Origin: Sediminibacterium sp.
GTDB lineage: Bacteria > Bacteroidota > Bacteroidia > Chitinophagales > Chitinophagaceae
NCBI RefSeq assembly: GCF_030695065.1
Contig: NZ_JAUYTR010000021.1
Location: forward strand, 124,001 to 188,000
Direction of reading: 5' to 3'
DNA: 64,000 nucleotides
The translations under genes and the position numbers were made by a program. A model generated the notes under the pieces. It was not told where the DNA came from, made no database searches, and saw only the letters and a program-made list of their open reading frames with translations. This document shows, piece after piece, positions 2,702-33,751 of the stretch (its first letter is position 1; each line of letters begins with the position of its first letter).

Positions 2702-4195
2702 ATGAAAAAGTATATTTTCTTTTTTATTTTATTAGCGCCCATTTCTTTTTTACTAGCGCAAAAGATTGCCCCTGTTATTGAACCTACACCTGCGGGTGTC
2801 TCTGTAGTAACAACAAAGAATAGTGTTACAATTGCGGGAAAAAAAGTGGATTATACTGCATACACAGGTTACCTGCATTTGAAAAATGATACAGGTAAGT
2901 TAATTGCAAAAATGTTCTTTACTTACTATAAAAAAGAAGGGGATGATGCCATAAAGCGACCTATTACATTCACTTTTAATGGTGGTCCAGGTTCATCTTC
3001 TGTTTGGTTGCATATGGGAGGATTAGGCCCAAAGAGAGTTCAATTTAACGACGAAGGGTTTTCTGAAGGTCCTCCATATTCTTTTATTAGCAATGAATAC
3101 AGTTGGTTAGATAAAACTGATTTAGTTTTTATTGATCCGGTTTCAACAGGTTTTAGTAGACCTGCTCCAGGTGAGAATCCTAAGCAGTTTCATGGGTTTA
3201 ACGAAGATGTAGCATCTATGGCATCATTCATCAGACATTTTTTATCTAGGTATGAAAGATGGGGTTCTCCAAAATACTTAGCTGGAGAAAGTTATGGTAC
3301 AACAAGAGCTGCTGGGTTATCCAAATATTTACAAGACAGACATAGAATTTATCTGAATGGAATTTTCATGATATCTGCTGTGCTAAATTTTGGCACTAAT
3401 GATTATTATGTAGGGAATGATTTGCCAAGGGCTTTATATATTCCGTCTTTCACTGCAGCTGCTTGGTATCATAAAAAATTAGCCCCTGCATTACAAGCTA
3501 ATTTACAAAACACACTCAAAGAAGCGGAGGCTTTTGCTATTGGACCATACGCGTCTGCGCTCATTAAAGGTGGTTGGTTATCAGAATCTGAAAAGAATGC
3601 GATAGCCGAGAAAATGAGCTACTATACCGGATTGTCTAAGGAATATTGTTTGCAAGCAAACTTAAGGGTAGAGGAAAGTAGATTTTACAAAGAGCTAAGA
3701 AGAAAAGATGGGTTAAGTATTGGCCGTTTAGATGCTAGATTTACTGGTAGAGATATTGACGATGCAGGGGAAGTGAACAGTTTTGATCCATCTTTTGCCA
3801 ATATTGATGGGCCTTTTACAGCAACTATTAATGATTATTTTCAAAGAGAACTGAACTTTAAAGAGGAAAATGGGTATAATATTTTTGGAGATGTGTATCC
3901 TTGGAATTACAATAATGTTCAAAATCAGTTCTTAAATGTTGCAGAAAGTTTAAGAGATGCAATGAGTAAGAACCCAGATTTAAAAGTATATATGGGAGCT
4001 GGATATTATGATTTTGCTACTCCATATTTTACGGCTAAGTATGATATTGAACATATGTTTTTAAGGCCCGAACAAAGAAAAAATGTACAATTCTATTTTT
4101 ATGAATCAGGTCATATGTACTATATTCACAAACCATCACTAGTGCAATTTAAAAAAGACGTAGATGCATTCTTCGAATTCAGTAGGGGGAAATGA
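2702..4195 (+). CDS. S10 family serine carboxypeptidase-like peptidase
   Basis: A 497-residue protein with a signal peptide (FFILLAPISFLLAQ) and the alpha/beta-hydrolase fold of peptidase family S10. The oxyanion-region motif GGPGSS is at residues 94-99, the nucleophile Ser197 lies in GESYG, and the likely triad partners are Asp437 (GYYDFATPY) and His471 (SGHMYY). Bacterial S10 members are exported and may act on C-terminal residues of peptides; the substrate is not known. The 3' end overlaps the start of the ECF sigma gene by 32 bases, so the two may be co-transcribed, though the functions do not obviously connect. Confidence 0.88.
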   Translation: MKKYIFFFILLAPISFLLAQKIAPVIEPTPAGVSVVTTKNSVTIAGKKVDYTAYTGYLHLKNDTGKLIAKMFFTYYKKEGDDAIKRPITFTFNGGPGSSSVWLHMGGLGPKRVQFNDEGFSEGPPYSFISNEYSWLDKTDLVFIDPVSTGFSRPAPGENPKQFHGFNEDVASMASFIRHFLSRYERWGSPKYLAGESYGTTRAAGLSKYLQDRHRIYLNGIFMISAVLNFGTNDYYVGNDLPRALYIPSFTAAAWYHKKLAPALQANLQNTLKEAEAFAIGPYASALIKGGWLSESEKNAIAEKMSYYTGLSKEYCLQANLRVEESRFYKELRRKDGLSIGRLDARFTGRDIDDAGEVNSFDPSFANIDGPFTATINDYFQRELNFKEENGYNIFGDVYPWNYNNVQNQFLNVAESLRDAMSKNPDLKVYMGAGYYDFATPYFTAKYDIEHMFLRPEQRKNVQFYFYESGHMYYIHKPSLVQFKKDVDAFFEFSRGK

Positions 4196-14927: not shown

Positions 14928-15521
14928 ATGCATATTGACATTGATACATTGCTTGCTTATGGTGCTACACCTAAAGAATGGCGCAAGGGAGAACTAATCT
15001 TTAGTCAAGGAAACGAAGCCCGTTATTTCCACCAACTTGATGCTGGTATGGTAAAAATGACGAGTTTAACCAATGATGCAAAAGAGTTTATACAAGGTGT
15101 TTTTACCGATGGTAATAGTTTTGGAGAACCCGCATTAATGTTATCAAAACCTTATCCTGCAAGTGCATACGCAGTTAGTGATTCAATCATTTATCGATTA
15201 AATAAGGAAAAATTTCTATTGTTGCTCGATGATCATCCCGCTTTATTTAAAAAACTATTCAATATATTTTGTGAGCGATTGTATTGTAAAACTTTAACAG
15301 CTAATATTTTAGTAAACAATTCCCCTGAAGAGAAATTAATTGGTTTTTTTGATAAGATTAAATCTGAATGTAAGTTAAAAGGAACTGGTCTTGTGCCCTA
15401 TACAAGGCAACAATTGGCAGATTATACAGGTTTAAGAGTTGAAACTGTTATTCGAACTTTATCTAAATTGGCAGAAAGAAAAATTGTGGTCATTCAAGAT
15501 CATAAAGTATTTTATAAATGA
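14928..15521 (+). CDS. Crp/Fnr family transcriptional regulator, likely nos regulator
   Basis: A 197-residue protein with an N-terminal cyclic-nucleotide-binding-like beta-roll (about 15-105), a dimer helix and a C-terminal winged helix (YTRQQLADYTGLRVETVIRTL). Glu172 and Arg176 match the Glu/Arg pair of Crp and Fnr that reads TGA half-sites. The N-terminal cysteine set of oxygen-sensing FNR is absent (only Cys115, Cys120 and Cys148 are present), so a DNR/NnrR-like nitric oxide or other signal is more likely. It overlaps the next gene by ATGA and sits beside a nos cluster whose promoter carries a fitting palindrome. Confidence 0.9.
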   Translation: MHIDIDTLLAYGATPKEWRKGELIFSQGNEARYFHQLDAGMVKMTSLTNDAKEFIQGVFTDGNSFGEPALMLSKPYPASAYAVSDSIIYRLNKEKFLLLLDDHPALFKKLFNIFCERLYCKTLTANILVNNSPEEKLIGFFDKIKSECKLKGTGLVPYTRQQLADYTGLRVETVIRTLSKLAERKIVVIQDHKVFYK

Positions 15522-16723
15522 ATGTTACCCGCCTATTAAAAATTGCCATGCTAAATTTAGTTTTAGTAGCCTTGATAGGTGTTTTGATGCGGTATAAAAT
15601 TGGTTTTGAATTCACATGGGTTAATCAGAAGAATTTACAATTAGCTCATTCCGGATTTGCTTTTTCAGGGTTCATTTCATTTTTGTTAATGATTTTTATA
15701 GTTGATTCATTAAAAAAAATATTAGATGAAAGGCAGCTCGATTATTTTAGTAGTATTATTTATCTCAATCTACTATTTGCTTATACTACCTGTATATTGT
15801 TTTTCTTAACCGGTTATGGGGTATGGTCGGTATTATCTCAATTGGTTGGGTTGATTGTTGGAGGCTTATTTATTTATCGCTTATTGCGTGTTTTGCCTCT
15901 CTTTAAGCAACCTCATATTACTAATTGGTATAAAGCTGCTGGTATCTTTTATTTACTTTCGCTTTTAGCCAATATATGGCTTTTATACATGTTTGTTTCA
16001 GGTAAGAAAACCCAACATACTTATTTAGCAGCAACTTATTGGTTTCTTCATTTTCAATACAATGGTTGGTTCTTTTTTGGATGCATGGGATTATTTTTCA
16101 ATTGGCTTTTTACCAAAGATTTATTAACCAATTTTAATCAACGTACGTTTTGGCTTTTTGCCGCCAGTTGTTTCCCCGCTTACGGACTTTCTGTATTGTG
16201 GTTAGAACTTCCTTTATGGGTGTATATTATAATTGTGGTTTCAGCATTTATGCAATTAATTGGTGTAATTCAATTGACCAAATTGATATTAAGCAAACCA
16301 ATAATCAATTTAATAAAGCAGAACAAAACAGTATTAATGCTTTTCTTCATTTCACTAGGTGCTTTGTTGGTAAAAGTTTTTTTGCAAGGTGGATCAACCA
16401 TTCCTTTTATCAGTAAACTGGCCTTTGGCTTTAGACCTATTGTGATTGCTTACTTGCATTTAGTATTATTGGCTTTTACTGCTTTGTTTTTAATTGGATA
16501 CATTTATTTGAATGATTATTTTTCATTTAGTAAGCGCAATTTTTTGGCTACAAAATTATTTGCACTTTTTGTTGTGTTAAACGAAATTGTGTTGGGTATT
16601 CAAGGAATTGCTTCTTTGAGTTATACCGTGATTCCTTTCGTAAATGAAATTTTATTAATTATTGCTGCAGGGTTGTTATTATCTAGCATTTTGATGGTTC
16701 CGCAAAAGTCTTATAAGCAGTAG
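15518..16723 (+). CDS. 12-helix membrane protein with intramembrane histidines, unknown function
   Basis: A 401-residue polytopic protein with about twelve predicted helices across its full length. Histidines lie inside three of them: LQLAHSGFAFSGF (helix 2), YWFLHFQYNGWFFFG (helix 6) and IAYLHLVLLAF (helix 10). Intramembrane histidines and the helix count recall NnrS and heme-copper oxidase subunit I, but no such family is convincingly matched. The start codon overlaps the regulator's stop (ATGA), so the two are co-expressed beside a nitrous oxide reductase cluster. A heme-binding or NO/N2O-related role is a hypothesis. Confidence 0.72.
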   Translation: MNVTRLLKIAMLNLVLVALIGVLMRYKIGFEFTWVNQKNLQLAHSGFAFSGFISFLLMIFIVDSLKKILDERQLDYFSSIIYLNLLFAYTTCILFFLTGYGVWSVLSQLVGLIVGGLFIYRLLRVLPLFKQPHITNWYKAAGIFYLLSLLANIWLLYMFVSGKKTQHTYLAATYWFLHFQYNGWFFFGCMGLFFNWLFTKDLLTNFNQRTFWLFAASCFPAYGLSVLWLELPLWVYIIIVVSAFMQLIGVIQLTKLILSKPIINLIKQNKTVLMLFFISLGALLVKVFLQGGSTIPFISKLAFGFRPIVIAYLHLVLLAFTALFLIGYIYLNDYFSFSKRNFLATKLFALFVVLNEIVLGIQGIASLSYTVIPFVNEILLIIAAGLLLSSILMVPQKSYKQ

Positions 16724-16731
16724 CTTTATTT

Positions 16732-16745
16732 GTGATTACAATCAT
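16732..16745 (+). promoter_or_regulatory. Crp/Fnr-type palindrome upstream of the FAS1 gene
   Basis: GTGATTACAATCAT contains the perfect 5-2-5 inverted repeat TGATT-AC-AATCA. It closely resembles the site at 24071-24084 before the cytochrome c-nosZ operon. Its centre is about 58 bases before the FAS1 start codon. No clean -7 element is found at the spacing seen in the nos promoter, so the mode of action is uncertain. Confidence 0.55.
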
Positions 16746-16796
16746 AAAAAAAACTTTTGCTAAATAGGAACTTAGCCAAAACCATAAATCTCGGTT

Positions 16797-17357
16797 ATGA
16801 AAAAAAATGCACTTATCTTATCTTCCATGCTATTGGTATTTAGCATAGGATGTTCAAACGCCAATTCTTCAACTGAGCCCGAAAATTCAAGCTCGGCTAC
16901 CACATCAGAAACAGGGGCAGGTCAATCTGCAGTTAAAGATGAAATATCAAGCCCCAATATCGTTCAGGTAGCAGTCGGTAGTAAGGATCATAGTACCTTG
17001 GTAGCAGCTGTGAAAGCTGCAGAATTGGTGGATGCTTTAAGCAATGCTGGTCCCTTCACTGTTTTTGCTCCAACCAATGCTGCTTTTGAAAAGTTACCTG
17101 CTGGCACAGTAGAAGGTTTATTAAAACCAGAGAAGAAAGCTGATTTGAAAAATATTTTAGAGTACCATACCTATGTTGGCGTTCTAAAAGCAGAATACAT
17201 GCAGGATGGTCAAGAATTTGAACAAGTAAATGGGGGTAAGGTAAAAATTACTAAGAAAGATAATAAGTTATTTGTTAATGGTTCTGAAGTGGTAGCATCA
17301 ATTGTTACATCAAACGGTATTATTCATGTAATCAATGATGTATTATTGCCTAAATAG
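16797..17357 (+). CDS. Fasciclin (FAS1) domain lipoprotein
   Basis: A 186-residue lipoprotein with lipobox SIGC, a Ser/Thr/Glu-rich linker (about 20-50) and one FAS1 domain (about 52-185; DHSTLVAAVKAAELVDAL, PFTVFAPTNAAFEKLP, LKNILEYHTYVG, NGIIHVINDVLLP). FAS1 lipoproteins bind proteins or glycans at the surface, and their roles in bacteria are mostly unknown. The gene is convergent with the nos operon (5 bases between stops) and has its own Crp/Fnr-like box, so it may belong to the same regulon. Confidence 0.9.
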   Translation: MKKNALILSSMLLVFSIGCSNANSSTEPENSSSATTSETGAGQSAVKDEISSPNIVQVAVGSKDHSTLVAAVKAAELVDALSNAGPFTVFAPTNAAFEKLPAGTVEGLLKPEKKADLKNILEYHTYVGVLKAEYMQDGQEFEQVNGGKVKITKKDNKLFVNGSEVVASIVTSNGIIHVINDVLLPK

Positions 17358-17362
17358 TTGAT

Positions 17363-17734
17363 CTAGCTAAACATTTTGATTTGCATTACAGTTGCAATAC
17401 TCATTGCTCTTTGCTTAGCTAATTCTGCTTTTTCACCTTCAAACAATTCTTCAACTGTTTCGGTAAATAAACTAGTCCATCTTTGAAAATGCTCCATCTT
17501 CATGGGGCATTTTTGATGTATGTCTTTATGTTTTGCCATTGGATTACCCTCGTAAGTTCCGGAATAGAATAAAATATTTTCCCAGAATCCGTACATGACA
17601 GGCAAATGTGCTGCCCAATTTACGGGCACAATTTCTGTAAAAAAAAATGCTATTAACGGATCTTTTTTTACTTTTTCATAGAAGCTATTGATTAATAACT
17701 CTATATCAGCTCTATTAGTAATATCTTTTTTCAT
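17363..17734 (-). CDS. Group III truncated haemoglobin
   Basis: A 123-residue protein spanning a TrHb3 globin: LINSFYEKVKKDPLIAFFF, the WENILFYSGTYEGNPMAKH region, and MEHFQRWTSLFTETVEELF with the probable proximal His. Group III globins are small cytoplasmic haem proteins of uncertain function, with nitric oxide or oxygen handling often proposed. It lies 30 bases after nosY with no promoter or terminator evident between them, so it is probably the last gene of the nos maturation transcript. Confidence 0.88.
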   Translation of the reverse strand: MKKDITNRADIELLINSFYEKVKKDPLIAFFFTEIVPVNWAAHLPVMYGFWENILFYSGTYEGNPMAKHKDIHQKCPMKMEHFQRWTSLFTETVEELFEGEKAELAKQRAMSIATVMQIKMFS

Positions 17735-17764: not shown

Positions 17765-18532
17765 TTACAAATCTTTCTTTTTAAACTTTGATAAGGAATA
17801 TGCAAATGGCAAAACACCCCAAAGTATCAATAATCCAAGAGAGACGACCATTCCGATTGTAGTGCCAAAAAAATCCTTGAAAATCGCCCCAGTATATCCC
17901 ATGATAGCAGAAGTGTCTAATTGCAGTAAAATTAATATTCTTGATAGGTCTAATGGGCTTAAAGCAGTCATTAGCACCATTGGTTGTTCAATAGGGTAGT
18001 CGGCAAATTGAAAAAGCAGAAAAAGTAAAATTCCGTCAAAGAGTAATGCAAAATAGATCCATAAAACAATGGTTAGCCCAATCCCTTTTGCTTTGTCTTT
18101 ATATACAATGGTACAAAGCATTGCGATTGATACAAAAATGGTTGTAATCAGAATACCAATACCAATCATTAAAAATGATAAGGGAGGCTCTGCAAAAATG
18201 AGCAAAGGAATGCCTGCACCAATAATAAAAGCAGTAACTAGACTACTATTTAAGCCCCAGAATAAACTAAGCCAAATTTTTTTTCTTTTGATTGGATGAC
18301 TGATCAATAGTTCAATAAATTCAGCACTATTATAGATATATATTGCTGAGAATAATATGGAAACCAGCGGTACAGTTAATAAAATTAAATTTAATAAGGT
18401 TAAAATGCCTTTTGCGCTGCTATCTTCTAAAGTAAATGCAGACCATCCAATTAATACCAGGATGAATGTGTAAATCATCACAAACTTGTTCTTCATGATA
18501 TCTAGCATTACATATTTAAATATTCTTCCCAT
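17765..18532 (-). CDS. nosY: NosY-type ABC transporter permease
   Basis: A 255-residue inner-membrane permease with about six helices (IYTFILVLIGWSAFTL, LLILWGVLPFAYSL at the end) and the family's loop FIELLISHPIKRKKIW. With NosF it forms the ABC transporter that, together with periplasmic NosD, supplies sulfur or supports copper-sulfide cluster assembly in nitrous oxide reductase. It overlaps nosF by 17 bases. Identification rests on membrane pattern plus position in the cluster. Confidence 0.88.
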   Translation of the reverse strand: MGRIFKYVMLDIMKNKFVMIYTFILVLIGWSAFTLEDSSAKGILTLLNLILLTVPLVSILFSAIYIYNSAEFIELLISHPIKRKKIWLSLFWGLNSSLVTAFIIGAGIPLLIFAEPPLSFLMIGIGILITTIFVSIAMLCTIVYKDKAKGIGLTIVLWIYFALLFDGILLFLLFQFADYPIEQPMVLMTALSPLDLSRILILLQLDTSAIMGYTGAIFKDFFGTTIGMVVSLGLLILWGVLPFAYSLSKFKKKDL

Positions 18533-19238
18533 TTTTTCCAGCTTTTAAAATTTGTAAAATGGCTTTGGAGATTTTTTCTGTTTGGGTATATTTTTTTAAT
18601 GCTGAAACAGATTGATGAAAGATAATATCTCCTTCTTGCATAAAAATAAGTTCACTAACCATATCGTCTAATTCACTGAGTAGGTGAGAAGTGATTATAA
18701 TTAATTTCCCTTTTTGTTTTTCAGCAATTATTTTTTGTTTGAGTTTTTCAGCAGCAATTGGATCAAGGCCTGCCGTGGGTTCATCTAATATCAGAATTGC
18801 AGGGTTAAACATAAATGCCAATACGGCACTTACTTTTTGCATTGTTCCCCCACTTAGTGTGCTCATTTTTTTATCTAATAATGAATCAAGGTCATATGCC
18901 TTATATAAATCATAATCTAACTCAGCATCACTATTTCGAATGCCTTTGATCATCTTTATTATTTGACCGATGGTCATATTTTGAGGGTATCTACCTATTT
19001 GAGGCATGTAACCAATTTGCTTTTTGTATAATTCAGCTTTAAGAATGGATTCATTATTCACTAAGATATTTCCTGTATCAGGAATTACCATTCCAAGTAT
19101 TATTTTAATTAGAGTGGTTTTGCCACATCCATTCGGCCCAACTAATGCGATGCATTCACCTTTGTTTAAGAAGAGGTCAACGGAATTTAAAACGGAAAGT
19201 TTTCCAAATTTTTTCGATATTTTTTCAATCTGAATCAT
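18516..19238 (-). CDS. nosF: NosF-type ABC transporter ATP-binding protein
   Basis: A 240-residue cytoplasmic ATPase with Walker A GPNGCGKTT, Q-loop region YMPQIGRYPQNMT, signature LSGGTMQK, Walker B ILILDEPTAGLDP and switch His in ITSHLLSE. It powers the NosFY transporter needed to build the copper centre of NosZ. Its start overlaps the nosD stop by four bases (ATGA) and its end overlaps nosY, a pattern of translational coupling. Confidence 0.94.
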   Translation of the reverse strand: MIQIEKISKKFGKLSVLNSVDLFLNKGECIALVGPNGCGKTTLIKIILGMVIPDTGNILVNNESILKAELYKKQIGYMPQIGRYPQNMTIGQIIKMIKGIRNSDAELDYDLYKAYDLDSLLDKKMSTLSGGTMQKVSAVLAFMFNPAILILDEPTAGLDPIAAEKLKQKIIAEKQKGKLIIITSHLLSELDDMVSELIFMQEGDIIFHQSVSALKKYTQTEKISKAILQILKAGKNGKNI

Positions 19239-20470
19239 AATTTCAACAAGTTCATTAATGGTTTTTCATCAATAAAATTTTCTGGCGTAAGGCTTGGGAT
19301 TTTCTTCTCCGATTGATCAAGCAGTGTTACAATAAGACTTCTGTATAATAACATAGCTGTTGGATTATTCTCTACTATTACTGAATATAAACTCAATGGT
19401 CTATAAGGGACGTCTCCAATTTTGTCTTTATTTAAGTCGTATCCAGTGTATTTATCCCAATAGTTGTATTGAAACTTATTCAATAATAAAGTTCCATTAG
19501 TACTTACATCAAAAGTATTTTTTAAAAAATTGTTGCTTTGAATAGTATTATCCATACAGTTGGCTTGTATTTTTAGTCCCCATCCATTATTGCTAAAGGC
19601 ATTTTTTTCTACGATAGTTCTATTGCAGCCATCCATAAAAATAGCTGCCGTATTTTTATTAAATGTATTTCCAGACAAATGGCAGTCAGATATTTCTTTT
19701 AATAATATTCCATATGCAGCATCCCCCCAATTTTCATTGAAAGTGTTATTCATCATGGTAATTTTTTTTGAAAACATAACAGCCACACCTGCTCCATTTC
19801 TACTGAATATATTTGTGAAATAAGCATCGTTATTAGAATTCATAAAATGTAAACCATACCTAATATTATCAGTTACCGTATTTCTCCAGATTACTGAATT
19901 ATTTACAAATTCAAAATAGATTCCATCTCTGCATCCTTTCATACTATTGCCAATGATTTGTAAACTGTCGCTTTTCCAACAGTGTATTCCATTGCCTATA
20001 GTTTGTTCTTCTTTTCCAAATGCAACGATTTTATTGTTTTTGATTAAACAGTGGGTACTGAATTGGATGTATATGCCAAAAAAGTTATCGTATAATTCAT
20101 TATCAATGATGGTTACTCTTGTTGCATCATATACTTTAATGCCCCCCGGATCATCTAAGCTTGCATATCCAGAATGCTGAACTCTCAAGCCACGAATGGT
20201 AACATAACTAGATTTAACTGAAAGTACTTCGTATTTTTTATCTCCGTCTAAAATTGGTCTATCTATACCAAACAACGTAATTGATTTGTTAACAATAATA
20301 TTGCCTTCTTTGTACAGCCCTTTATGTATATAAACAGTATCCCCATTTTCTGTTTTTTCTAACGCTGCTTTAATCGTTTTAAAAGAATGATTTGATCCAA
20401 CGTGTAAGCTTTTGGCAATAAGCGCATATTTGCTAGTTAAGAGTAACAGCGTAATCAATATCCATTTCAT
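19235..20470 (-). CDS. nosD: NosD periplasmic copper-cluster maturation protein
   Basis: A 411-residue exported right-handed beta-helix protein. After the signal peptide (MKWILITLLLLTSKYALIA) come many short repeats with NN and N-D turns (GIKVYDATRVTIIDNELYDN, NNKIVAFG, GNSMKGCRDGIYFE, LSGNTFNKNTAAIFMDGC) typical of CASH/NosD domains. NosD is required for CuZ maturation of NosZ. The start was moved to 20470, two bases after the preceding stop, because the upstream extension (MGSNKQIR) lies inside that gene and hides the signal peptide. Confidence 0.93.
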   Translation of the reverse strand: MKWILITLLLLTSKYALIAKSLHVGSNHSFKTIKAALEKTENGDTVYIHKGLYKEGNIIVNKSITLFGIDRPILDGDKKYEVLSVKSSYVTIRGLRVQHSGYASLDDPGGIKVYDATRVTIIDNELYDNFFGIYIQFSTHCLIKNNKIVAFGKEEQTIGNGIHCWKSDSLQIIGNSMKGCRDGIYFEFVNNSVIWRNTVTDNIRYGLHFMNSNNDAYFTNIFSRNGAGVAVMFSKKITMMNNTFNENWGDAAYGILLKEISDCHLSGNTFNKNTAAIFMDGCNRTIVEKNAFSNNGWGLKIQANCMDNTIQSNNFLKNTFDVSTNGTLLLNKFQYNYWDKYTGYDLNKDKIGDVPYRPLSLYSVIVENNPTAMLLYRSLIVTLLDQSEKKIPSLTPENFIDEKPLMNLLKL

Positions 20471-20472
20471 CC

Positions 20473-21477
20473 TTATTTGTTTATTTGATCCCAAGAAACT
20501 GTTTCTACAGAAATTGATTTACCCTTATTCATTGCTAAATCTTTGTTTGAAAATGCAGCCGTATTGCTTCCCATTGGACTTTTAATTGTTTCATGACTGA
20601 TATACCAAGCAGTAGTTGCATCAATTAGTTGATTGTTTGCTTCATAGTCATTTACAAATAATTTGTTCATCATAATTTTTTCGTTCAATTTATTAAATGC
20701 AATCATACAGTTTAAGTCGTCAAACTTATAAATCCTTCCCTTAGTACTAATAGCTTCTGCGCCAAACCGAATATCTGCAACAGTCATTTTACAAAATGCA
20801 CACTGGTCTTTATTAACTACTAAAGCATCTGGTTTTACATTAGAGCAAGAGCTAAGTAGCATTACAAATAATATTGTAGCAGTTGTTTTTTGCTTAATCC
20901 ATTTTGTAAACCAGCCCGCTTCTAAGCCTACTGCTATTAAACATAATAATCCAGCTCCAATGAATAACCATCCCCCCATATCGGGTATGGAGTAAGCCCC
21001 AAAATTGAGTAACTGTTTAAATCCAATAAGTGGTGGTTGATAAGCCATTCCAGGTACAATAATTGCAGCATTGGGGTCTAGATTATGTCCATAATTGTAT
21101 TCCCATCTCCAAAAATCAATCATAGCGATTATTCCAAATACTACAAATGCAATGAAGGTACTGTACAACAATTTTCTGCCGCCTTTTAAACCAGCGAAAA
21201 GCATCAATAACGAATAGAAACCAATAATATAAGGTAAAATAGTAAACTCAATAAAATTCTCTTCATGTAATGTTTGCATTCCTATATAATGGTTTAATCC
21301 ATTTATGATTGCAACGTCTCCACCTAATTTATAAGAAAATATTTGCAAGCCCAATCCTTCAGGGTATTGTGGCGCGTCTAATTCAATTCGCCAAATAGGT
21401 ATAAAAATGGAGATTGCTAAAAATACAGCACTAATTACTAACAACCATTTCGATGTTGTAGCTATTTCTTTTCTCAT
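20473..21477 (-). CDS. nosL: NosB-like membrane module fused to NosL
   Basis: A 334-residue protein in two parts. Residues 1-195 hold about five helices and resemble the membrane protein that follows nosZ in clade II clusters (NosB-like; GDVAIINGLNHYIGM). From about 196 there is a complete NosL: a hydrophobic segment with lipobox-like LLSSC (Cys211), then DQCAFCKM (Cys226, Cys229, Met231), the copper-chaperone motif, and IYKFDDLNCMIAF. NosL delivers Cu(I) for NosZ. The frame is continuous with no sign of a stop or restart between parts. A terminator lies between it and nosZ. The NosB name is tentative. Confidence 0.85.
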   Translation of the reverse strand: MRKEIATTSKWLLVISAVFLAISIFIPIWRIELDAPQYPEGLGLQIFSYKLGGDVAIINGLNHYIGMQTLHEENFIEFTILPYIIGFYSLLMLFAGLKGGRKLLYSTFIAFVVFGIIAMIDFWRWEYNYGHNLDPNAAIIVPGMAYQPPLIGFKQLLNFGAYSIPDMGGWLFIGAGLLCLIAVGLEAGWFTKWIKQKTTATILFVMLLSSCSNVKPDALVVNKDQCAFCKMTVADIRFGAEAISTKGRIYKFDDLNCMIAFNKLNEKIMMNKLFVNDYEANNQLIDATTAWYISHETIKSPMGSNTAAFSNKDLAMNKGKSISVETVSWDQINK

Positions 21478-21486
21478 CTTAAAAAG

Positions 21487-21531
21487 TTTAAAAATAAAAA
21501 AGGAGCAGTGTTGGTCTGAACTGCTCCTTTT
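21487..21531 (-). terminator. Intrinsic terminator between nosZ and nosL
   Basis: The perfect 12-base arms 21498-21509 and 21520-21531 (AAAAGGAGCAGT and its complement) enclose a 10-base loop. On the minus strand the stem is followed by a long U-rich tail (21487-21497). It lies 11 bases past the nosZ stop codon and 9 bases before the nosL start, so it should end much of the cytochrome c-nosZ transcript. Confidence 0.88.
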
Positions 21532-21542
21532 GTTACAAACGA

Positions 21543-23519
21543 TTACTTAGTTTCTGGAACAGGTTTTCCTAAACTAAATGTAAGCGGTACATTACTACCA
21601 GCAGGGGAAACCCTAATATAACCCTGCATTTCTTGGTGTAATGCACTACAGAAATCTGTACAGTACATTGGAAACATACCAGGTTTTTTTGGAACCCATT
21701 TTAATGTGGTTGTTTCGCCAGGCATAATTAATAGTTCTGCATTATCTGCACCTTTAATAGCGAAGCCATGTGGCACATCCCAGTCTTGTTCTAAGTTGGT
21801 TACATGAAAATATACTTCGTCTCCAACTTTAATACCTTCAATATTGTCTGGTGCAAAGTGAGAACGAATTGATGTCATGTAAACATGTACTTTATTTCCA
21901 TCTCTAGTAACTTTTGCATTTGCTTCACCCATGGTTACATACGGATGCTTGTTTTCAGATAGTTTATATAATTTTAACTGACCATTGTTTCTTATAATGT
22001 CTGCCGGTGCAGACTGAGCATAGTGTGGCTCTCCAATAGTTGGGTAATCTAAAATCAATTGCATTTTATCGCCACTGATATCATACAATTGTGCACTCTG
22101 CGCCAATTCTGGACCAGTAGGTAAATAACGATCTTTGGTAATTTTATTATATGCCACTAAGTATTTAGGAGAAGGTTTTTTAGTATTTCCTCCAGGAATA
22201 CTTAAGTGTCCAACAGAATAATATGTTGGCACACGATCTACCACTGTTAAATCTTTGATATTCCATTTTACTACTTCAGAAGATACAAAGAAAGAAGTGT
22301 ATGCATATCCTTTACCATCAAATTCTGTGTGCAATGGTCCTAGACCTGGTTTCTTTACTTCGCCGTATAAAGCTGATTCATATTTGATTACAGGAATACC
22401 TTCGTAATCTCCATCATATGATTTTGATGCAATAGATTGTTGAATTTTATCAAAACTAAATACTGGGATTAAGGCTGCAAGTTTGCCAGAGCCTACAATA
22501 TATTCTCCGGTTGGATCCACATCACAACCATGTGGAGACTTAGGACAAGGGATGAAGTAAACGATGTCTTTAAACTCTTTCACATCTAATACCAATACTT
22601 CTTCTTCCATTTTTGAAGTAGCTGTTTGGGTAGATTCATTCCATGTATTATGGGCATATTTGGCTTTCACTTTTTTGCCTTTGCCTGCTTTAATATATTC
22701 TTCCGCTTTTTTCCAATTCACCGCCATGATAAAGTCTTTGTCTTTTTGAGAAGCATTCACTTCTAATAAAGTACTGGCTTGCTCGGTATTATAGCAGCTG
22801 AAGAAAAACCAACCATGAGATTTTCCTTTACCAGCTCTGGCCAAGTCAAAGTTTACACCAGGTGTTTTTAATTGGAAAGCAACTTTCATTTCACCTGTTT
22901 CTTTTGCAACACTCACAAAAGAGATATGACCTTTAAAATTCTTTTTGTATGAATTAATGGCAACATCACCATTGTCTTCATCAGACGGGACACTAAAACG
23001 GGTACCTGCTACAATGTATTCTGAGTTCTCTGTTCCAAATGGTGAACTGTGGTTGCCAGCACTATTTGGGAGTTCTAAAATTTCAGCAGTTCTAAATGTT
23101 TTTAGATCTATTCTTGCTAAACGGGGGGTATTGTTGCCATTGGCGAATACCCATTTACCATCTATTTCACCATTGGTTTGGCTCATTTCTGTATGGTGTA
23201 AATCGTCCCATGGCACAAATCCATGCGAAGTGTTTAACATTGGTTTGGTTTCTTCACTATAGCCCCATCCTTTTTCAGGATCTACAGAGAATACAGGAAT
23301 TACCCTTAATAAACGACCACTTGGTAACCCGTAAACACTCATTTGTCCGCTAAATCCACCTGAGACAAAATTGTAGTATTCATCGTATTTCCCAGGAGCT
23401 ACATAGGCTTTGGCAGCTGCATCGCCACTAACAGCACTTCCCGAGTTTTTGGGTTTACATGAATACAATGCAGAAATAGCAATTATAGCTGCAATAGAAG
23501 TTGATTGTATTATTTTCAT
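21543..23519 (-). CDS. nosZ: Clade II nitrous oxide reductase NosZ, lipoprotein-type
   Basis: A 658-residue enzyme reducing N2O to N2. A seven-bladed propeller carries candidate CuZ histidines in DDLHHTEM, GNHSSPFG, CPKSPHGCDV, LGPLHTEF, YYSVGHLS and GEPHYAQS. A C-terminal cupredoxin domain carries the CuA set CTDFCSALHQEM (Cys620, Cys624, His628, Met631) with the upstream His in DVPHGF. The leader MKIIQSTSIAAIIAISALYSC is a Sec/lipoprotein type, without the twin-arginine motif of clade I. The start at 23519 follows the cytochrome gene by 13 bases; the longer frame overlaps that gene. The length matches the family. Confidence 0.96.
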   Translation of the reverse strand: MKIIQSTSIAAIIAISALYSCKPKNSGSAVSGDAAAKAYVAPGKYDEYYNFVSGGFSGQMSVYGLPSGRLLRVIPVFSVDPEKGWGYSEETKPMLNTSHGFVPWDDLHHTEMSQTNGEIDGKWVFANGNNTPRLARIDLKTFRTAEILELPNSAGNHSSPFGTENSEYIVAGTRFSVPSDEDNGDVAINSYKKNFKGHISFVSVAKETGEMKVAFQLKTPGVNFDLARAGKGKSHGWFFFSCYNTEQASTLLEVNASQKDKDFIMAVNWKKAEEYIKAGKGKKVKAKYAHNTWNESTQTATSKMEEEVLVLDVKEFKDIVYFIPCPKSPHGCDVDPTGEYIVGSGKLAALIPVFSFDKIQQSIASKSYDGDYEGIPVIKYESALYGEVKKPGLGPLHTEFDGKGYAYTSFFVSSEVVKWNIKDLTVVDRVPTYYSVGHLSIPGGNTKKPSPKYLVAYNKITKDRYLPTGPELAQSAQLYDISGDKMQLILDYPTIGEPHYAQSAPADIIRNNGQLKLYKLSENKHPYVTMGEANAKVTRDGNKVHVYMTSIRSHFAPDNIEGIKVGDEVYFHVTNLEQDWDVPHGFAIKGADNAELLIMPGETTTLKWVPKKPGMFPMYCTDFCSALHQEMQGYIRVSPAGSNVPLTFSLGKPVPETK

Positions 23520-23532
23520 AATTATTGTTTGA

Positions 23533-24024
23533 TTATTTAGTTCCGTCATTTTTACGCATAAATTCTAAAATTTCCCTTGCATCGGTATCGCTTAAGCCTT
23601 GATTGGGCATTCTTACCAAACACAATTCAAGTTGTGCTTGAATTTTAGGATCTTTTTCAATCATTGGATCGGGGTTAGATATAAAGTTTAAAATCCAATA
23701 GGGAGTGTTTCTTGTGGTTACTCCTTTCCATCCCGGGCCAACCAGTCTTTCTTCGGTTAGTTTATGGCAAGAAGTACACTTAGTTGCAGAAATAGCTTCT
23801 CCTTTACTAGCCATTGTATTATCAAGTGCCCCCAATATTACATTGGACTCATTAAATTTTCCTTCTCCGCGTTTAGGATCATAGTCTGAAGGAGAGGCAT
23901 TTGTTGCAGCATTTACATCTGAAGCTGCTTCTGTAGATGCTGCTTTTTGACCTCCGCCACCACAAGCTATAATAGCCCAACATAGGGCTGTCATAAGTAC
24001 AAATACGATCGGTTTTTTATTCAT
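23533..24024 (-). CDS. Class I cytochrome c lipoprotein, probable NosZ electron donor
   Basis: A 163-residue lipoprotein (lipobox AIIAC, then a Gly/Ala/Ser linker) with one cytochrome c domain: heme motif CTSCH at 83-87 and probable axial Met139 in VRMPNQGL. It is the first gene of the nosZ transcript, 13 bases ahead of nosZ, and is likely to pass electrons to the CuA site of NosZ on the periplasmic side of the membrane. No NosR/NosX electron-transfer genes occur here, as expected for clade II systems. Confidence 0.92.
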   Translation of the reverse strand: MNKKPIVFVLMTALCWAIIACGGGGQKAASTEAASDVNAATNASPSDYDPKRGEGKFNESNVILGALDNTMASKGEAISATKCTSCHKLTEERLVGPGWKGVTTRNTPYWILNFISNPDPMIEKDPKIQAQLELCLVRMPNQGLSDTDAREILEFMRKNDGTK

Positions 24025-24048: not shown

Positions 24049-24070
24049 GAAAAGGCAAAATCCAATGTTT

Positions 24071-24084
24071 ATGATTGCAGTCAT
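24071..24084 (-). promoter_or_regulatory. Crp/Fnr-type operator of the cytochrome c-nosZ operon
   Basis: ATGATTGCAGTCAT is a near-perfect 14-base palindrome with TGA...TCA half-sites. Its centre (24077.5) is 29.5 bases upstream of the first T of the -7 element, which equals -41.5 from the predicted start: the class II activator position of Crp/Fnr proteins. The helix of the regulator at 14928 has the Glu/Arg pair that reads TGA. A related box stands at 16732. Confidence 0.65.
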
Positions 24085-24128
24085 ACTTATAAAAAAGCTT
24101 AAACATTATAATCTTCTTATTTTGCAGT

Positions 24129-28874: not shown

Positions 28875-31268
28875 ATGAAGAAAATTGCGGTGTTTTTAGT
28901 TGCATCTGTCTTTGCTTTAAGCAGTCAGGCGCAAAACATCATGAACAATCCCAGTTCCAATCACGGTAACAAGTTTGAGCAACTAGGTACCATTTTACCT
29001 ACGCCAAATGAATACAGAACTGCAAGTGGCGCCCCAGGTCCTAAGTATTGGCAGCAAAGAGCTGACTATGTAATTAAAGCAGAGTTAGATGAAGCCAATC
29101 TTAAATTAAAGGGAACAGAAACTGTTACTTATTTTAATAATTCTCCTGATGTGTTAACTTATTTGTGGTTGCAATTAGATGAGAATGAGCACAGCAGCAA
29201 AAACAATGCAAACTACCAAGACGCATCATCTATGCCTCGCCAATTAACCACAGCTGCGTTAGATAATATGGCTGCTGCAAAAACAGATAATGGAAATGGA
29301 CATATCATTTCTTCGTTAACTGATGCTGCTGGTAAAGCTTTAAAATATACCATTAACCGCACCATGATGCGTATTGATTTGCCAAGTCCATTAAAGCCTG
29401 GCCAAAAATTCGTATTCAATGTAGCATGGAGTTATAAAGTAACCAATCGTATGACTGTTGGTGGTAGAGGTGGATATGAAACCCTAGAAGATGGAAACAA
29501 TCTATTCACCATGGCACAGTGGTTCCCACGTTTATGTGTTTACAGCGATTTCCAAGGATGGCAAAACCAACAGTTTACTGGCAGAGGAGAATTTGCTTTG
29601 GCTTTTGGTAATTACGATGTAACCCTTACTGTTCCTGCCGACCATATTGTATTAAGCACAGGAGTTTGTCAAAACTATGCGCAAGTTTTAACACCAGCTC
29701 AAATGGCTAGATGGAATCAAGCACAAACTGCAAAAGAGCCTGTTGAAATTGCTACATTAGCTGAAGCCAATAGCAAAGAAAACACTAAGAGCACCCAGAA
29801 AAAAACTTGGGTATACAAAGCAGAAAATGTACGTGATTTTGCATGGACAACCAGCCGCAGGTATATCTGGGATGCAATGCCAGTTTATGTTGAAGGCAAG
29901 AAGATTATGTGTATGAGTGGCTATCCAAAAGAGGCGTATGGCTTGTATAGAAAATATTCAACTAAGGTAGTAGCACATACTATTAAATCTTATTCTAAGT
30001 TTTCTATTCCTTATCCTTATCCAGTGGCTCAAAGTATTGAAGCTTCAAATGGTATGGAATACCCAATGATTTGTTTCAATAATGGTAGAACCAACAAAGA
30101 TGGTTCTTACAGCGAGCAAACCAAAGTGGGAATGATTGGTGTAATTGTTCACGAAGTTGGGCATAATTTCTTCCCTATGATTGTGAATAGCGACGAGCGT
30201 CAGTGGAGTTGGATGGACGAGGGTATCAATAGCTTTGTTCAATACTTAACCGAAGAATTGTTCGACAATAAATATCCTTCTAGAGGAGGTCCAGCTTGGG
30301 GAATTGCAGGTTATATGCGTTTGCCAAAAGAGCAATTAGAGCCAATTATGACCAATAGTGAAAACATTGTACTCTTTGGACCCAATGCTTATACCAAGCC
30401 GGCAACAGGCTTAAATATACTTCGTGAAACCATCATGGGCCGCGAGTTATTTGACTATGCTTTTAAAGAATATGCTAGAAGATGGGCATTTAAACATCCA
30501 ACCCCTGCAGACCTGTTCCGTACTATGGAAGATGCAAGTGCAGAAGATTTGGATTGGTTCTGGAGAGGATGGTTCTATGGTATTGACCCAGTAGATATTG
30601 CCATTGATACAGTTAAACATGCAGTAATGAATCCTAATGCAGTTCCTACAGCACCTCTAGCTCCTACGCAAACCATGTCATTAGCAAAGCCACTATTTAG
30701 CGGTGCTGCAGCGTTTGATGATATTTCTAAACAAAGAAATAGAAACGATAAGCGCATTGTTTTCCAAACAGATGTAGATACCAGTTTAAGAGATTTTTAT
30801 TGGAGATATACTCGTGGAATAGAGCCTTACGATTCAACCGTTAAGTTTTCTTTCCCTGCTAATGTTGCACCAACTGCTTTAACAGAAGAAGAGAAAAGCA
30901 AATACAAGAATGTAAACTTATATGAAGTTACTTTCTCTAATAAGGGGGGATTGGTGATGCCGATTATTGTAGAGTTTACTTTTGAAGACGGAACCACTGA
31001 AACAGAAAGAATACCTGCACAAATTTGGAGAAAGAATGAACAAAAAGTAACCAAGCTCTTTATGACTACTAAAAAAGCCAAGTCAATAAAAGTAGATCCA
31101 ATGAGAGAAACAGCAGATATTAATGAAGGAAACAATAGCTGGCCTAAAAACGGTCTAGCACCAGAACCAAGCAAATTCAGCTTGTTCAAGGGTGCTGCTG
31201 GTAGAGCGCGTGGCGCATCATTTGGAGTGAATCCAATGCAGAACGCTATGCAGAAAGCCAATCAGTAA
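28875..31268 (+). CDS. M1 family metallopeptidase, first tandem copy
   Basis: A 797-residue secreted zinc aminopeptidase. After the signal peptide (VFALSSQAQ) comes an N-terminal beta domain. The substrate-binding variant NGMEYP replaces GAMEN. The catalytic site is HEVGH (His426, Glu427, His430) with Glu449 in MDEG, and Tyr is present in NAYTKPATGL. A C-terminal Ig-like region follows (GGLVMPIIVEFTFEDGT), ending in a basic Gly/Arg tail (GAAGRARG). It is nearly collinear with the following gene, so the two arose by tandem duplication. The presence of signal peptides argues for a periplasmic or outer-membrane location. Confidence 0.93.
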   Translation: MKKIAVFLVASVFALSSQAQNIMNNPSSNHGNKFEQLGTILPTPNEYRTASGAPGPKYWQQRADYVIKAELDEANLKLKGTETVTYFNNSPDVLTYLWLQLDENEHSSKNNANYQDASSMPRQLTTAALDNMAAAKTDNGNGHIISSLTDAAGKALKYTINRTMMRIDLPSPLKPGQKFVFNVAWSYKVTNRMTVGGRGGYETLEDGNNLFTMAQWFPRLCVYSDFQGWQNQQFTGRGEFALAFGNYDVTLTVPADHIVLSTGVCQNYAQVLTPAQMARWNQAQTAKEPVEIATLAEANSKENTKSTQKKTWVYKAENVRDFAWTTSRRYIWDAMPVYVEGKKIMCMSGYPKEAYGLYRKYSTKVVAHTIKSYSKFSIPYPYPVAQSIEASNGMEYPMICFNNGRTNKDGSYSEQTKVGMIGVIVHEVGHNFFPMIVNSDERQWSWMDEGINSFVQYLTEELFDNKYPSRGGPAWGIAGYMRLPKEQLEPIMTNSENIVLFGPNAYTKPATGLNILRETIMGRELFDYAFKEYARRWAFKHPTPADLFRTMEDASAEDLDWFWRGWFYGIDPVDIAIDTVKHAVMNPNAVPTAPLAPTQTMSLAKPLFSGAAAFDDISKQRNRNDKRIVFQTDVDTSLRDFYWRYTRGIEPYDSTVKFSFPANVAPTALTEEEKSKYKNVNLYEVTFSNKGGLVMPIIVEFTFEDGTTETERIPAQIWRKNEQKVTKLFMTTKKAKSIKVDPMRETADINEGNNSWPKNGLAPEPSKFSLFKGAAGRARGASFGVNPMQNAMQKANQ

Positions 31269-31287
31269 TTGAATAAATATATATATG

Positions 31288-31319
31288 AATGCCACCTGTT
31301 TAAATACGGGTGGCATTTT
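31288..31319 (+). terminator. Intrinsic terminator between the two M1 peptidase genes
   Basis: The perfect 9-base arms AATGCCACC (31288-31296) and GGTGGCATT (31309-31317) enclose a 12-base loop, and the right arm ends in a TTTT run. It stands 19 bases past the first M1 stop codon and 41 bases before the second start codon. It also rules out the in-frame extension of the second gene that begins at 31310. Confidence 0.82.
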
Positions 31320-31360
31320 GTATTTTAGCCATCCTTAAGATGCTGACTAAATATACTTTT

Positions 31361-33751
31361 ATGAAAAAAATTGTTTTCCTCCTTTATGCTTTAGTGATAG
31401 GCTTGGTTGCCCATGCGCAAAATATCATGAACAATCCAACTTCTAATCACGGGAATAAGTTTGAACAGCTAGGTACTATTCTACCTACGCCCAATGAATA
31501 CAGAACAGCAAGTGGCGCCCCCGGCCCAAAATACTGGCAACAAAGAGCCGATTATGTAATTAAAGCAGTATTGGATGAAGCCAAACTAGAACTAAAAGGA
31601 ACAGAAACCATCACTTATTATAATAATGCACCTGATGTATTAACTTATATATGGTTGCAGTTAGACGAGAACCAGCATAGTACCGTTAACAATGCCAATT
31701 ACCAAGATGCAACAACCCTTGAGAATGCGGTTGCAACCAATCAACTAGAAAAGTTAGCCGCTGCAAAATCGGATAATGGCTATGGCCATAAAATTGCCAA
31801 GTTAACAGATGCAATGGGTAAGCCTTTAAAGTATATCATCAATAAAACCATGATGCGCATAGATTTGCCAGCACCATTAAAGCCTGGCCAAAAATTTATT
31901 TTCAATGTAGCATGGAGCTATAAAATTGCAGATAGAATGACTTTTGCGGGCAGGGGTGGATACGAAATGTTAGAAGATGGGAATCATTTGTTTACGATGG
32001 CTCAGTGGTTCCCGCGTTTATGTGTGTACAGTGATTTTCAGGGCTGGCAGAATCAACAGTTTTCTGGAAGGGGAGAATTTGCGCTCACATTTGGCAACTA
32101 TGATGTTACATTAACGGTTCCATCCGATCATATTGTATTAAGTACAGGAGTTTGTCAAAATTATAGTCAGGTATTAAGTCCAGCACAAATGACTCGCTGG
32201 AATCAGGCACAAACAGCAAAAGAACCTATTGAAATTGCTACATTAGAAGAAGCTAATAAGCGAGCTGAAGGAAAAGCAACAAGCACTAAAACATGGGTGT
32301 ATAAAGCAGAGAATGTAAGAGATTTTGCATGGACTTCTAGTAGAAGATATATATGGGATGCAATGCCAGTTTATATTGAAGGAAAGAAAGTAATGTGCAT
32401 GAGCGGCTATCCAAAAGAAGCGTATGGATTGTATCGTAAGTTTTCTACCAAAGCGGTAGCACATACTATTAAAACCTATTCTAAATTCTCTATCCCTTAT
32501 CCATATCCAGTTGCACAAAGTATTGAAGCGTCTAATGGAATGGAGTATCCGATGATTTGTTTCAACAACGGAAGAACCAATAAAGATGGCTCTTATGCAG
32601 AAGCAACCAAGTATGGTATGATTGGAGTAATTATTCATGAAGTAGGTCATAATTTCTTCCCCATGATTGTGAACAGTGATGAGCGTCAGTGGAGCTGGAT
32701 GGACGAAGGCTTAAATACATTTGTTCAATTCTTAACAGAAGAATTATGGGATAATAAATACCCTACTAGAAGAGGTCCTGCCAGATTAATTACCGATTAC
32801 ATGCGCTTGCCTAAAGACCAGCTTGAACCAATTATGACCAATAGTGATAATATCATTCAATTTGGTCCTAATGCGTATGCCAAGCCTGCAACTGGATTGA
32901 ATATTTTGCGTGAAACCATCATGGGGCGCGAACTATTTGATTATGCATTTAAAGAGTATGCAAGACGATGGGCTTTTAAACATCCAACTCCTGCAGATTT
33001 GTTTAGAACAATGGAAGACGCCAGTGCAGAAGATTTAGATTGGTTTTGGAGAGGATGGTTTTACAGTATAGAGCCTTGTGATATTGCCATTGAAAACGTA
33101 AAGCATGCGGTGGTTAATAGTGCGCCTAGTACAGACGCCCCAAGAGCTTCTAATACAATGACGCGTGGTTTAGATAAGCCATTATTTAGTGGTGCTGCAG
33201 CTTTTGATGATATTGCTAAACAAAGAAACAGAAATGATAAGAGCATTGTTTTCCAAACAGATGTAGATACCAGTTTAAGAGATTTTTATTGGAGGTACAC
33301 AAGAGGATTGGAAGCTTATGATTCTTCATTTAAGTTTCAGGTTCAAGCAAATACGCCCCCTGCTGCATTAACTTCTGAAGAATTAGCCAAGTACCAAAAT
33401 ACCAACTTGTATGAAATTACTTTTGCCAATAAAGGTGGATTGGTTATGCCATTGATTGTAGAATTCACTTTTGAAGATGGAACAAAAGAAATGGAGAAAA
33501 TACCTGCTCAGGTTTGGAGAAAGAATGAAAATAAAGTCACTAAATTATTCATGACTAACAAAAAAGCGGTTTCGATTCAATTAGATCCATTAAAGGAAAC
33601 AGCAGATATTAATGAGTCAAATAACAAGTGGCCTAATGGTGCAGTAGCTGAGCCTTCTAAATTTAGTATTTTCAAAGCAGGAGCGGGTAGAGGCAGAGGT
33701 CAGTCATCTGGAGTTAATCCCATGCAACACACAATGCAAAAAGGACAATAA
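31361..33751 (+). CDS. M1 family metallopeptidase, second tandem copy
   Basis: A 796-residue paralogue of the preceding gene with the same order of domains and active site at identical residue numbers (HEVGH at 426-430, Glu449, NGMEYP, NAYAKPATGL). Differences cluster in the signal peptide (VIGLVAHAQ), after the active site (RRGPARLITDYM against RGGPAWGIAGYM), in the linker before LDKPLFSGAAAFDD, and in the C-terminal tail. The start at 31361 gives a normal signal peptide; the longer frame starts within a terminator stem. Its stop abuts the start codon of the next gene (TAAATG), so it is coupled to the esterase pair. Confidence 0.93.
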   Translation: MKKIVFLLYALVIGLVAHAQNIMNNPTSNHGNKFEQLGTILPTPNEYRTASGAPGPKYWQQRADYVIKAVLDEAKLELKGTETITYYNNAPDVLTYIWLQLDENQHSTVNNANYQDATTLENAVATNQLEKLAAAKSDNGYGHKIAKLTDAMGKPLKYIINKTMMRIDLPAPLKPGQKFIFNVAWSYKIADRMTFAGRGGYEMLEDGNHLFTMAQWFPRLCVYSDFQGWQNQQFSGRGEFALTFGNYDVTLTVPSDHIVLSTGVCQNYSQVLSPAQMTRWNQAQTAKEPIEIATLEEANKRAEGKATSTKTWVYKAENVRDFAWTSSRRYIWDAMPVYIEGKKVMCMSGYPKEAYGLYRKFSTKAVAHTIKTYSKFSIPYPYPVAQSIEASNGMEYPMICFNNGRTNKDGSYAEATKYGMIGVIIHEVGHNFFPMIVNSDERQWSWMDEGLNTFVQFLTEELWDNKYPTRRGPARLITDYMRLPKDQLEPIMTNSDNIIQFGPNAYAKPATGLNILRETIMGRELFDYAFKEYARRWAFKHPTPADLFRTMEDASAEDLDWFWRGWFYSIEPCDIAIENVKHAVVNSAPSTDAPRASNTMTRGLDKPLFSGAAAFDDIAKQRNRNDKSIVFQTDVDTSLRDFYWRYTRGLEAYDSSFKFQVQANTPPAALTSEELAKYQNTNLYEITFANKGGLVMPLIVEFTFEDGTKEMEKIPAQVWRKNENKVTKLFMTNKKAVSIQLDPLKETADINESNNKWPNGAVAEPSKFSIFKAGAGRGRGQSSGVNPMQHTMQKGQ

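Follow-up and report, generated by a model that had tools for sequence, protein, structure and literature searches.

The 64,000 nucleotides of Sediminibacterium sp. DNA analyzed here (the window; contig NZ_JAUYTR010000021.1, positions 124,001 to 188,000) encode, next to a nitrous oxide reductase (nos) gene cluster, a membrane protein of a family that we refer to as FAM. We conclude that FAM, as yet undescribed, probably helps this group of bacteria to break down nitrous oxide (N2O), a greenhouse gas, because it appears to be co-expressed with nitrous oxide reductase. What is new is a heme-copper oxidase (HCO) fold without the catalytic center that is placed in N-oxide respiration. Our best explanation, tentative when taken as a whole, is that this undescribed family with the fold of HCO subunit I is an accessory of N-oxide respiration, here N2O reduction, that would carry heme b, is made together with a Crp/Fnr regulator, and serves most likely in electron transfer.

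Fold and extent of the family

The FAM gene occupies positions 15518-16723 (+ strand), where an earlier sequence-only reading of the window had placed it. It begins with ATG, has no internal stop, and encodes 401 amino acids (P0001, the window member of the family). Its start overlaps the end of a Crp/Fnr regulator gene (14928-15521, +) at a common ATGA, as that reading had also described. The statement that the gene points into the nos island is right as to its direction, but the nos genes (17765-24024) run on the opposite strand, convergent with FAM.

An AlphaFold2 model of P0001, built from a 60-sequence alignment (A2; 59 of 80 loci from GTDB contigs plus P0001), has a mean pLDDT of 90.2, a pTM of 0.92, and 12 transmembrane-length helices, in agreement with the roughly twelve counted beforehand. 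When the model was compared with the PDB by Foldseek, the top 47 rows were by title all heme-copper oxidases or nitric oxide (NO) reductases, with CcoN the best (E 2.3e-6), and the 50 rows obtained with VIA were likewise heme-copper oxidases or NO reductases. The VIA scores, Z 35.2 for cbb3 CcoN 8smr_E (rmsd 3.1, 395 residues aligned) and Z 33.4 and 32.7 for NorB (4xyd_A and 3o0r_B), lie well beyond the chance level stated for helical models. The structural alignments with CcoN span model residues 1 to 401, from N to C terminus, and the helices are therefore in register; identity in the structural alignments is 11-14 %. As modeled, P0001 has the full-length HCO subunit I fold, so that the distant likeness to this subunit suspected at the outset extends over the whole chain.

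No Pfam family matched P0001 at E values up to 1, nothing in NCBIfam rose above noise, and PDB sequence searches with P0001 and its profile gave no meaningful match. The 27 sequences of a second alignment (A1; P0001 plus 26 of 29 other loci from a search of same-family genomes) gave only noise against Pfam and NCBIfam, apart from a weak match to DUF2871 (PF11070) in 2 of the 27 (best E 0.0012); the window protein itself is unmatched, and the relation is unproven. The protein is thus unnamed, as first supposed. Open-access literature searches found no description of the family, which does not prove its absence from print, and the excerpted text of a Flavobacterium nos-cluster study (PMC9697520) treats nosB, nosL, nosD, nosF, and nosY and contains no FAM-like gene.

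The source genome has one FAM copy. A search of 147 same-family genomes gave a relative in 72, the source genome included; it used a single query sequence, which misses remote members (G014 was positive only by profile). At least 562 stretches among the GTDB contigs encode a relative. Among the matches listed, the closest named relatives belong to Bacteroidota, namely, to the metagenome-assembled genome "Sphingobacteriia bacterium 28-36-52" (98 % identity) and to Sediminibacterium salmoneum (52 %). A search of plasmids gave a single remote relative, which has 27 % identity and carries the annotation "hypothetical protein."

Ligand positions kept and lost

P0001 holds five His, among them H44 (AHSGFAF), H178 (FLHFQYNGW), and H314 (YLHLVLL), the three singled out by the sequence-only reading. 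None of the three varies among the 27 sequences of A1, and they are thus conserved among homologues; because of this invariance and the relatives in 72 of 147 genomes, the FAM gene is more than a chance reading frame. In a wider set of 105 rows, H44, H314, R25, and K286 are present in all rows and H178 in 101, and residue 312 is mostly Y (84 rows), otherwise F (20) or W (1); at least 12 of these rows are repeats (11 genes entered twice, and P0001 again as L123), and the set excludes proteins shorter than 380 amino acids (L130, L160) and three loci that gave no ORF match (L161, L164, L167).

A full-length profile alignment pairs H44 with the low-spin heme His of helix 2 (HTN motif), H314 with the other low-spin heme His, H178 with the CuB His of helix 6, Y312 with the position of the high-spin heme His, and L224-S225 with that of the helix-7 His-His pair; we take the CcoN residues to have these ligand roles. 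MAFFT returned the same assignment, L224-S225 included, in 8 of 8 resamplings. Three of 25 hhalign runs were full-length, and all three agreed for helices 2, 6, and 10, with the helix-7 position at L224-S225 in one and at P232-L233 in another. The full-length profile alignment has a probability of 15 %; local profile-profile alignments with CcoN and NorB are weak (2 to 21 %) and put helix 2 onto HCO helix 10.

H178 is the only CuB/FeB-type His of P0001 in these alignments: the helix-7 pair was not found, and the high-spin heme His on helix 10 is absent from all 105 rows, which have Y, F, or W there. The earlier remark that no catalytic set was evident therefore holds. As to the heme- or copper-binding role then considered, the conserved His at heme b ligand positions speak for heme, but the loss of the helix-7 CuB pair speaks against copper. 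We read this pattern as a bis-His site for one heme b that is kept while the binuclear center is gone; heme binding is a prediction from the aligned sequences. Pfam COX1 (PF00115) gave no match at E values up to 1 for P0001, the 27 members, or 6 members of other branches. This is not due to a faulty COX1 model, since NO reductase (NOR) genes beside sister members match it at about 1e-60 (a qNOR at 6.6e-62 and a cNOR at 1.4e-60).

The helix-2 consensus of the family is HAHSHFAFAGW, against LAHSGFAFSGF in the window, where two further His are lost. The clade of the window has thus replaced two of the three His in the HxHSH motif of most relatives (codon 46, 15653-15655), and the close relatives L039-L043 also lack the two extra His.

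Association with nosZ across genomes

FAM co-occurs strongly with nosZ and with the Crp gene. In the 147 same-family genomes, 65 have FAM and nosZ (over its cut-off), 7 FAM only, 11 nosZ only, and 64 neither; with two split nosZ genes counted, the figures are 67, 5, 11, and 64. That 65 of 72 FAM genomes carry nosZ disposes of the possibility, raised with the first description, that homologues occur mostly in genomes lacking denitrification genes. FAM and nosZ lie on one contig, with starts 2.0-10.7 kb apart, in 59 of the 67 same-family genomes with both. In a sample of 296 genomes of the phylum, both genes are present in 48, FAM only in 11, nosZ only in 51, and neither in 186 (odds ratio 15.9); all these are species counts, not independent events. 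Fifty-five of the 59 FAM-bearing genomes of this sample have nosZ or NOR, and the link to NOR alone is weaker (16/59; odds ratio 3.5).

Within the locus DNA read for 80 related loci (L039-L118), a Crp match was present in 69, a fasciclin match in 62, and nosZ in 49. Thirteen of the 31 loci without nosZ nearby were checked for nosZ elsewhere in the genome, and 11 had it. In L057 and L086, whose genomes have no nosZ, a cytochrome c gene still stands beside the FAM gene.

NO reductase was not detected in the source genome, where nirK was not searched for, and the source organism therefore looks like a non-denitrifying N2O reducer. The same query finds cNOR- and qNOR-like genes in 39 of the 296 genomes, including one from the same genus. 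NO reductase was likewise undetected in 39 of the 48 phylum genomes with FAM and nosZ, and organisms with both genes therefore need not make NO.

Two nos clusters without FAM encode another unnamed His-bearing membrane protein of 351-368 amino acids with no Pfam match (L224:14293-15399, +; L220:3472-4527, -). Short membrane proteins with HxHxxxxG-type motifs adjoin the nos cluster of a distant lineage (L167:2319-3389, +, and 3702-4178, +); the scanned part of the former has a weak PF00115 match (1.8e-5). Small CopD-domain membrane proteins occur in or beside nos and NOR clusters (L222:14416-14850, +; L154:8393-8842, -).

Regulator and shared palindrome

The Crp and FAM genes are on the same strand in all 68 loci in which both ORFs were present, and at most 60 nt apart or overlapping in 59 of these. 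The best NCBIfam match of the regulator, FixK, is far under the cut-off. Its only Cys are at positions 115, 120, and 148, and it therefore has no N-terminal Cys cluster for an Fe-S center.

Within 250 nt upstream of the genes we searched for the palindrome ATGA-N6-TCAT (consensus TATGAY-N4-RTCATA), a box that was first noticed by eye and then counted in the same loci, from related species. It precedes Crp in 45 of 68 loci, the fasciclin gene in 39 of 62, and cytochrome c genes of the nos type in 47 of 51; in loci whose Crp and cytochrome genes diverge, a single site can enter both counts. In most of the 47 loci the cytochrome c box heads the nosZ operon. Shuffles, which preserve single-base composition only, gave a mean below 1 and a maximum of 3, and the box did not occur upstream of two control genes from these loci (0 of 49 and 0 of 45). 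In the window, a perfect copy heads the cytochrome c-nosZ operon, a copy with one mismatch precedes the fasciclin gene (Table 1), and no copy with fewer than two mismatches directly precedes Crp. We infer that the Crp/Fnr protein binds this palindrome, and the expression of FAM appears to be coupled to that of nitrous oxide reductase.

FNR-type boxes (TTGAT-N4-ATCAA and TTGA-N6-TCAA) are absent from all three upstream sets. TTG-N8-CAA occurs upstream of Crp in 8 of 68 loci against 3.8 expected (shuffles up to 8). TTG-N10-CAA is enriched there for reasons that are unexplained (13 of 68, within L039-L118, against 3.6 expected and at most 7 in 50 shuffles).

Other branches of the family

Forty stretches with wider relatives were read, and the FAM ORF was recovered in 36 (not in L161, L164, L167, or L215). 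Their genes include that of the repair protein RIC (TIGR03652) in 23, nosZ in 19, Rrf2 regulators in 27, Crp in 1, qNOR or cNOR in 8, NirK in 6, HemN in 4, and CtaA in 3. The gene names were confirmed on examples: NO reductases of solved structure are matched by the qNOR at E 9e-247 and by the cNOR at E 3e-112, the NirK matches solved copper nitrite reductases (E 2e-190), and the azurin-type protein, NrdD, CtaA, and HemN match their own Pfam families; in NCBIfam, the qNOR was unmatched and the cNOR matched only ccoN, weakly. FAM of the NO-reductase branch has as neighbors an azurin-type copper protein and a NirK that carries a cytochrome c domain of its own; the order in L153 is Rrf2, azurin-type protein, qNOR, RIC, and FAM, with NirK further out. 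In a sister genus (L165 and L166), the FAM reading frame runs on into the nos cytochrome c, immediately upstream of nosZ. The junction could be a 13th helix, in which case the cytochrome would sit outside. In the nos branch, NrdD is found in 16 and RIC in 22 of the 80 loci; RIC is also found in 7 of 20 nos loci without FAM.

A conserved protein of about 600 amino acids (L160:899-2704, -; L154:5032-6855, +; 30 of the 80 loci L039-L118) is encoded near FAM, RIC, and NrdD/NrdG, also in distant branches. One example that was scanned had no meaningful Pfam or NCBIfam match.

Proposed function and alternatives

We favor electron transfer to the nos cytochrome c as the function of FAM because of the predicted heme b site, the small electron carriers found in each genomic context, and the fusion. 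The co-transcribed Crp/Fnr regulator would control both FAM and the cytochrome c-nosZ operon. By the most likely mechanism, one heme b, held in the membrane close to its outer face, would accept electrons from the quinol pool and hand them to an adjoining small periplasmic carrier, namely, the nos cytochrome c or, where FAM belongs to the NO-reductase branch, either an azurin-type protein or a cytochrome c, and the carrier would deliver them to NosZ or NirK. Quinol oxidation and the direction of electron flow are, like heme binding, putative. In a form that goes further and that we regard as rather unlikely, an oxidase scaffold that lost its reaction center would have become a dedicated quinol-to-cytochrome c protein, with a single heme b, for N2O and nitrite respiration across the Bacteroidota.

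Several results weigh against the electron-transfer proposal. FAM is absent from 51 of the 99 nosZ-bearing phylum genomes and is therefore not required for N2O reduction in general. When 20 of those 51 loci were read, another possible electron-entry module was seen in just 3, a Rieske-like protein in L226 and L234 (by regular expression) and a Fer4 membrane iron-sulfur protein with multiheme cytochromes in L227; a regular exchange of FAM for another such module is thus not supported. A quinol site in FAM was not identified, and qNOR, the neighbor in the sister branch, takes electrons straight from quinol. The fusion is confined to one genus, and its junction contains a lipoprotein-like hydrophobic segment. 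RIC beside FAM (23/40 and 22/80) also suits a role in NO stress. Finally, 22 of the 25 hhalign runs preferred a shifted partial alignment to HCO, with helix 2 on helix 10. Such a shift is expected from the internal repeat of the HCO fold, and the ligand assignment accordingly draws on the full-length alignments and the structure match; from sequence alone, the register of the His ligands is weak.

Only narrowly below electron transfer do we rank protection from NO in the manner of NnrS, itself somewhat doubtful. FAM would bind or scavenge NO at the membrane, at a heme or metal in the emptied catalytic pocket around H178, shielding NosZ and iron proteins, and would be this phylum's counterpart of NnrS, with a Crp/Fnr regulator driving it as NnrR drives nnrS. 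The neighbors in the wider family (RIC in 23, qNOR or cNOR in 8, NirK in 6, and Rrf2 in 27 of 40 stretches) fit this idea, as does the globin-like gene close to the window FAM, and NnrS is above its cut-off in just 4 of the 296 genomes versus 59 with FAM. The sections of PMC1274295 on NO regulons place nnrS and dnrN in their core together with nor, nir, and nos. Against it, most genomes with FAM and nosZ (39 of 48), and also the source genome, have no detected NO reductase, RIC accompanies nos genes lacking FAM as well, and Y, F, or W takes the place of the high-spin heme ligand. The relatedness to NnrS suggested by the sequence-only reading was not recovered by sequence: the NnrS profile (PF05940) matched neither P0001 nor the 27 members nor members of other branches, and a profile comparison of FAM with NnrS found no similarity, a weak test with 3 NnrS sequences only (a fourth locus, L189, was excluded for an in-frame stop).

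It is improbable that FAM is an assembly or delivery factor, in which the fold would be reused for handling heme or copper in the maturation of NosZ, NOR, or the cytochrome. CtaA (3/40) and HemN (4/40) do occur in the wider-family stretches, and nos clusters hold several membrane proteins of maturation; NosD, NosF, NosY, and NosL are, however, already there, about half of the nosZ genomes manage without FAM, and strictly kept bis-His positions suit a redox cofactor better. More improbable still is a membrane sensor of redox state or NO that acts on the co-transcribed Crp/Fnr protein, a partnership proposed with the first description of the gene. The adjacency of the two genes in 59 of 68 loci and a regulator devoid of an N-terminal Cys cluster for an Fe-S sensor speak for it, but co-regulation through the shared box accounts for the adjacency, and outside the Crp branch FAM lies near other regulators (Rrf2 in 27/40, Crp in just 1/40), so that the partnership is no property of the family as a whole. 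We consider it very unlikely that FAM is an active NO or O2 reductase with an unusual center (H178, N182, Y312), even though H178-x3-N182-G resembles the H-x3-E-G of the L154 cNOR and four distant members have E at 182, as the helix-7 His pair and helix-10 high-spin His are absent and those four members lack H178.

Other features of the locus

The gene order Crp-FAM-fasciclin is conserved, and the annotated features around it are collected in Table 1. Elsewhere in the window, two adjacent, closely similar ORFs of about 800 codons (28875-31268 and 31310-33751, +) look like a tandem duplication, with sequence that by eye resembles an HExxH-type peptidase.

Table 1. Features of the FAM and nos locus in window coordinates
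Feature	Position	Strand	Basis and remarks
Crp/Fnr-family regulator	14928..15521	+	Pfam cNMP_binding and HTH_Crp_2; one operon with FAM
FAM, HCO-fold 12-helix membrane protein	15518..16723	+	ORF, model, structure match
Codon H44, helix 2	15647..15649	+	Aligned with low-spin heme b His of CcoN; 105/105 rows
Codon H178, helix 6, then N182-G-W	16049..16051	+	Aligned with CuB His; 101/105 rows
Codon H314, helix 10	16457..16459	+	Aligned with second low-spin heme b His; 105/105 rows
Box TGTGATTACAATCATA	16731..16746	.	Upstream of fasciclin gene; 1 mismatch to palindrome
Fasciclin-domain protein	16797..17357	+	Pfam Fasciclin; tblastn match in 62/80 related loci
Truncated-globin-like protein	17363..17734	-	Pfam Bac_globin 24.3 bits, cut-off 21; match in 46/80 loci
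NosY-type ABC permease	17765..18532	-	Pfam ABC2_membrane_2; NosY by position; match in 51/80 loci
NosF-type ABC ATPase	18516..19238	-	Named by eye and position; match in 51/80 loci
NosD	19235..20494	-	TIGR04247 above cut-off
NosB-NosL fusion	20473..21477	-	Pfam NosL; LNHYIGM motif of NosB present (motif from excerpted text of PMC9697520)
NosZ, Sec-dependent clade II	21543..23549	-	TIGR04246 932 bits, cut-off 625
Monoheme cytochrome c of nos operon	23533..24024	-	Pfam Cytochrom_C; one CxxCH
Perfect box TATGATTGCAGTCATA	24070..24085	.	Upstream of cytochrome c-nosZ operon

Significance and comparison with known systems

How clade II NosZ obtains its electrons in the Bacteroidota is, to our knowledge, little understood. 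FAM, a membrane protein that is conserved and co-regulated and has a predicted heme site, is present in 48 of the 99 sampled nosZ genomes of the phylum and is a testable candidate for a missing component. If the proposal is correct, an electron-transfer protein with an oxidase fold would fill a gap in the electron supply of clade II NosZ in this phylum, and an HCO fold would have persisted without its catalytic center, its low-spin heme ligands strictly kept. According to the abstracts of PMC9697520 and PMC11906303, bacteria with clade II NosZ count as N2O sinks, and many of them have no other genes for denitrification.

FAM can be compared with several known kinds of protein. It shares with CcoN, the subunit I of cbb3 oxidases, the 12-helix fold over the whole chain (Z 35), both His positions of the low-spin heme b, and the His of helix 6, but the helix-7 His pair and the high-spin heme His are found in CcoN only, and FAM has no Pfam COX1 match. 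NorB of the cytochrome c-dependent NO reductase has the same fold (Z 33), a helix-6 His followed by x3-(E/N)-G, a small cytochrome c beside it, and denitrification genes as neighbors, all as in FAM; it differs in its FeB and heme b3 ligands, which are missing from FAM, and NOR genes adjoining FAM match COX1 where FAM does not. NosB resembles FAM as a polytopic membrane protein of clade II nos clusters, but it is a separate gene here, fused to NosL, and its conserved motif LNHYIGM, given as such in the excerpted text of PMC9697520, is absent from P0001. NnrS, as characterized in the sections of PMC1274295 on NO regulons, is a polytopic membrane protein tied to N-oxide genes, Crp/Fnr-type regulation, and RIC, and in these respects FAM is like it.

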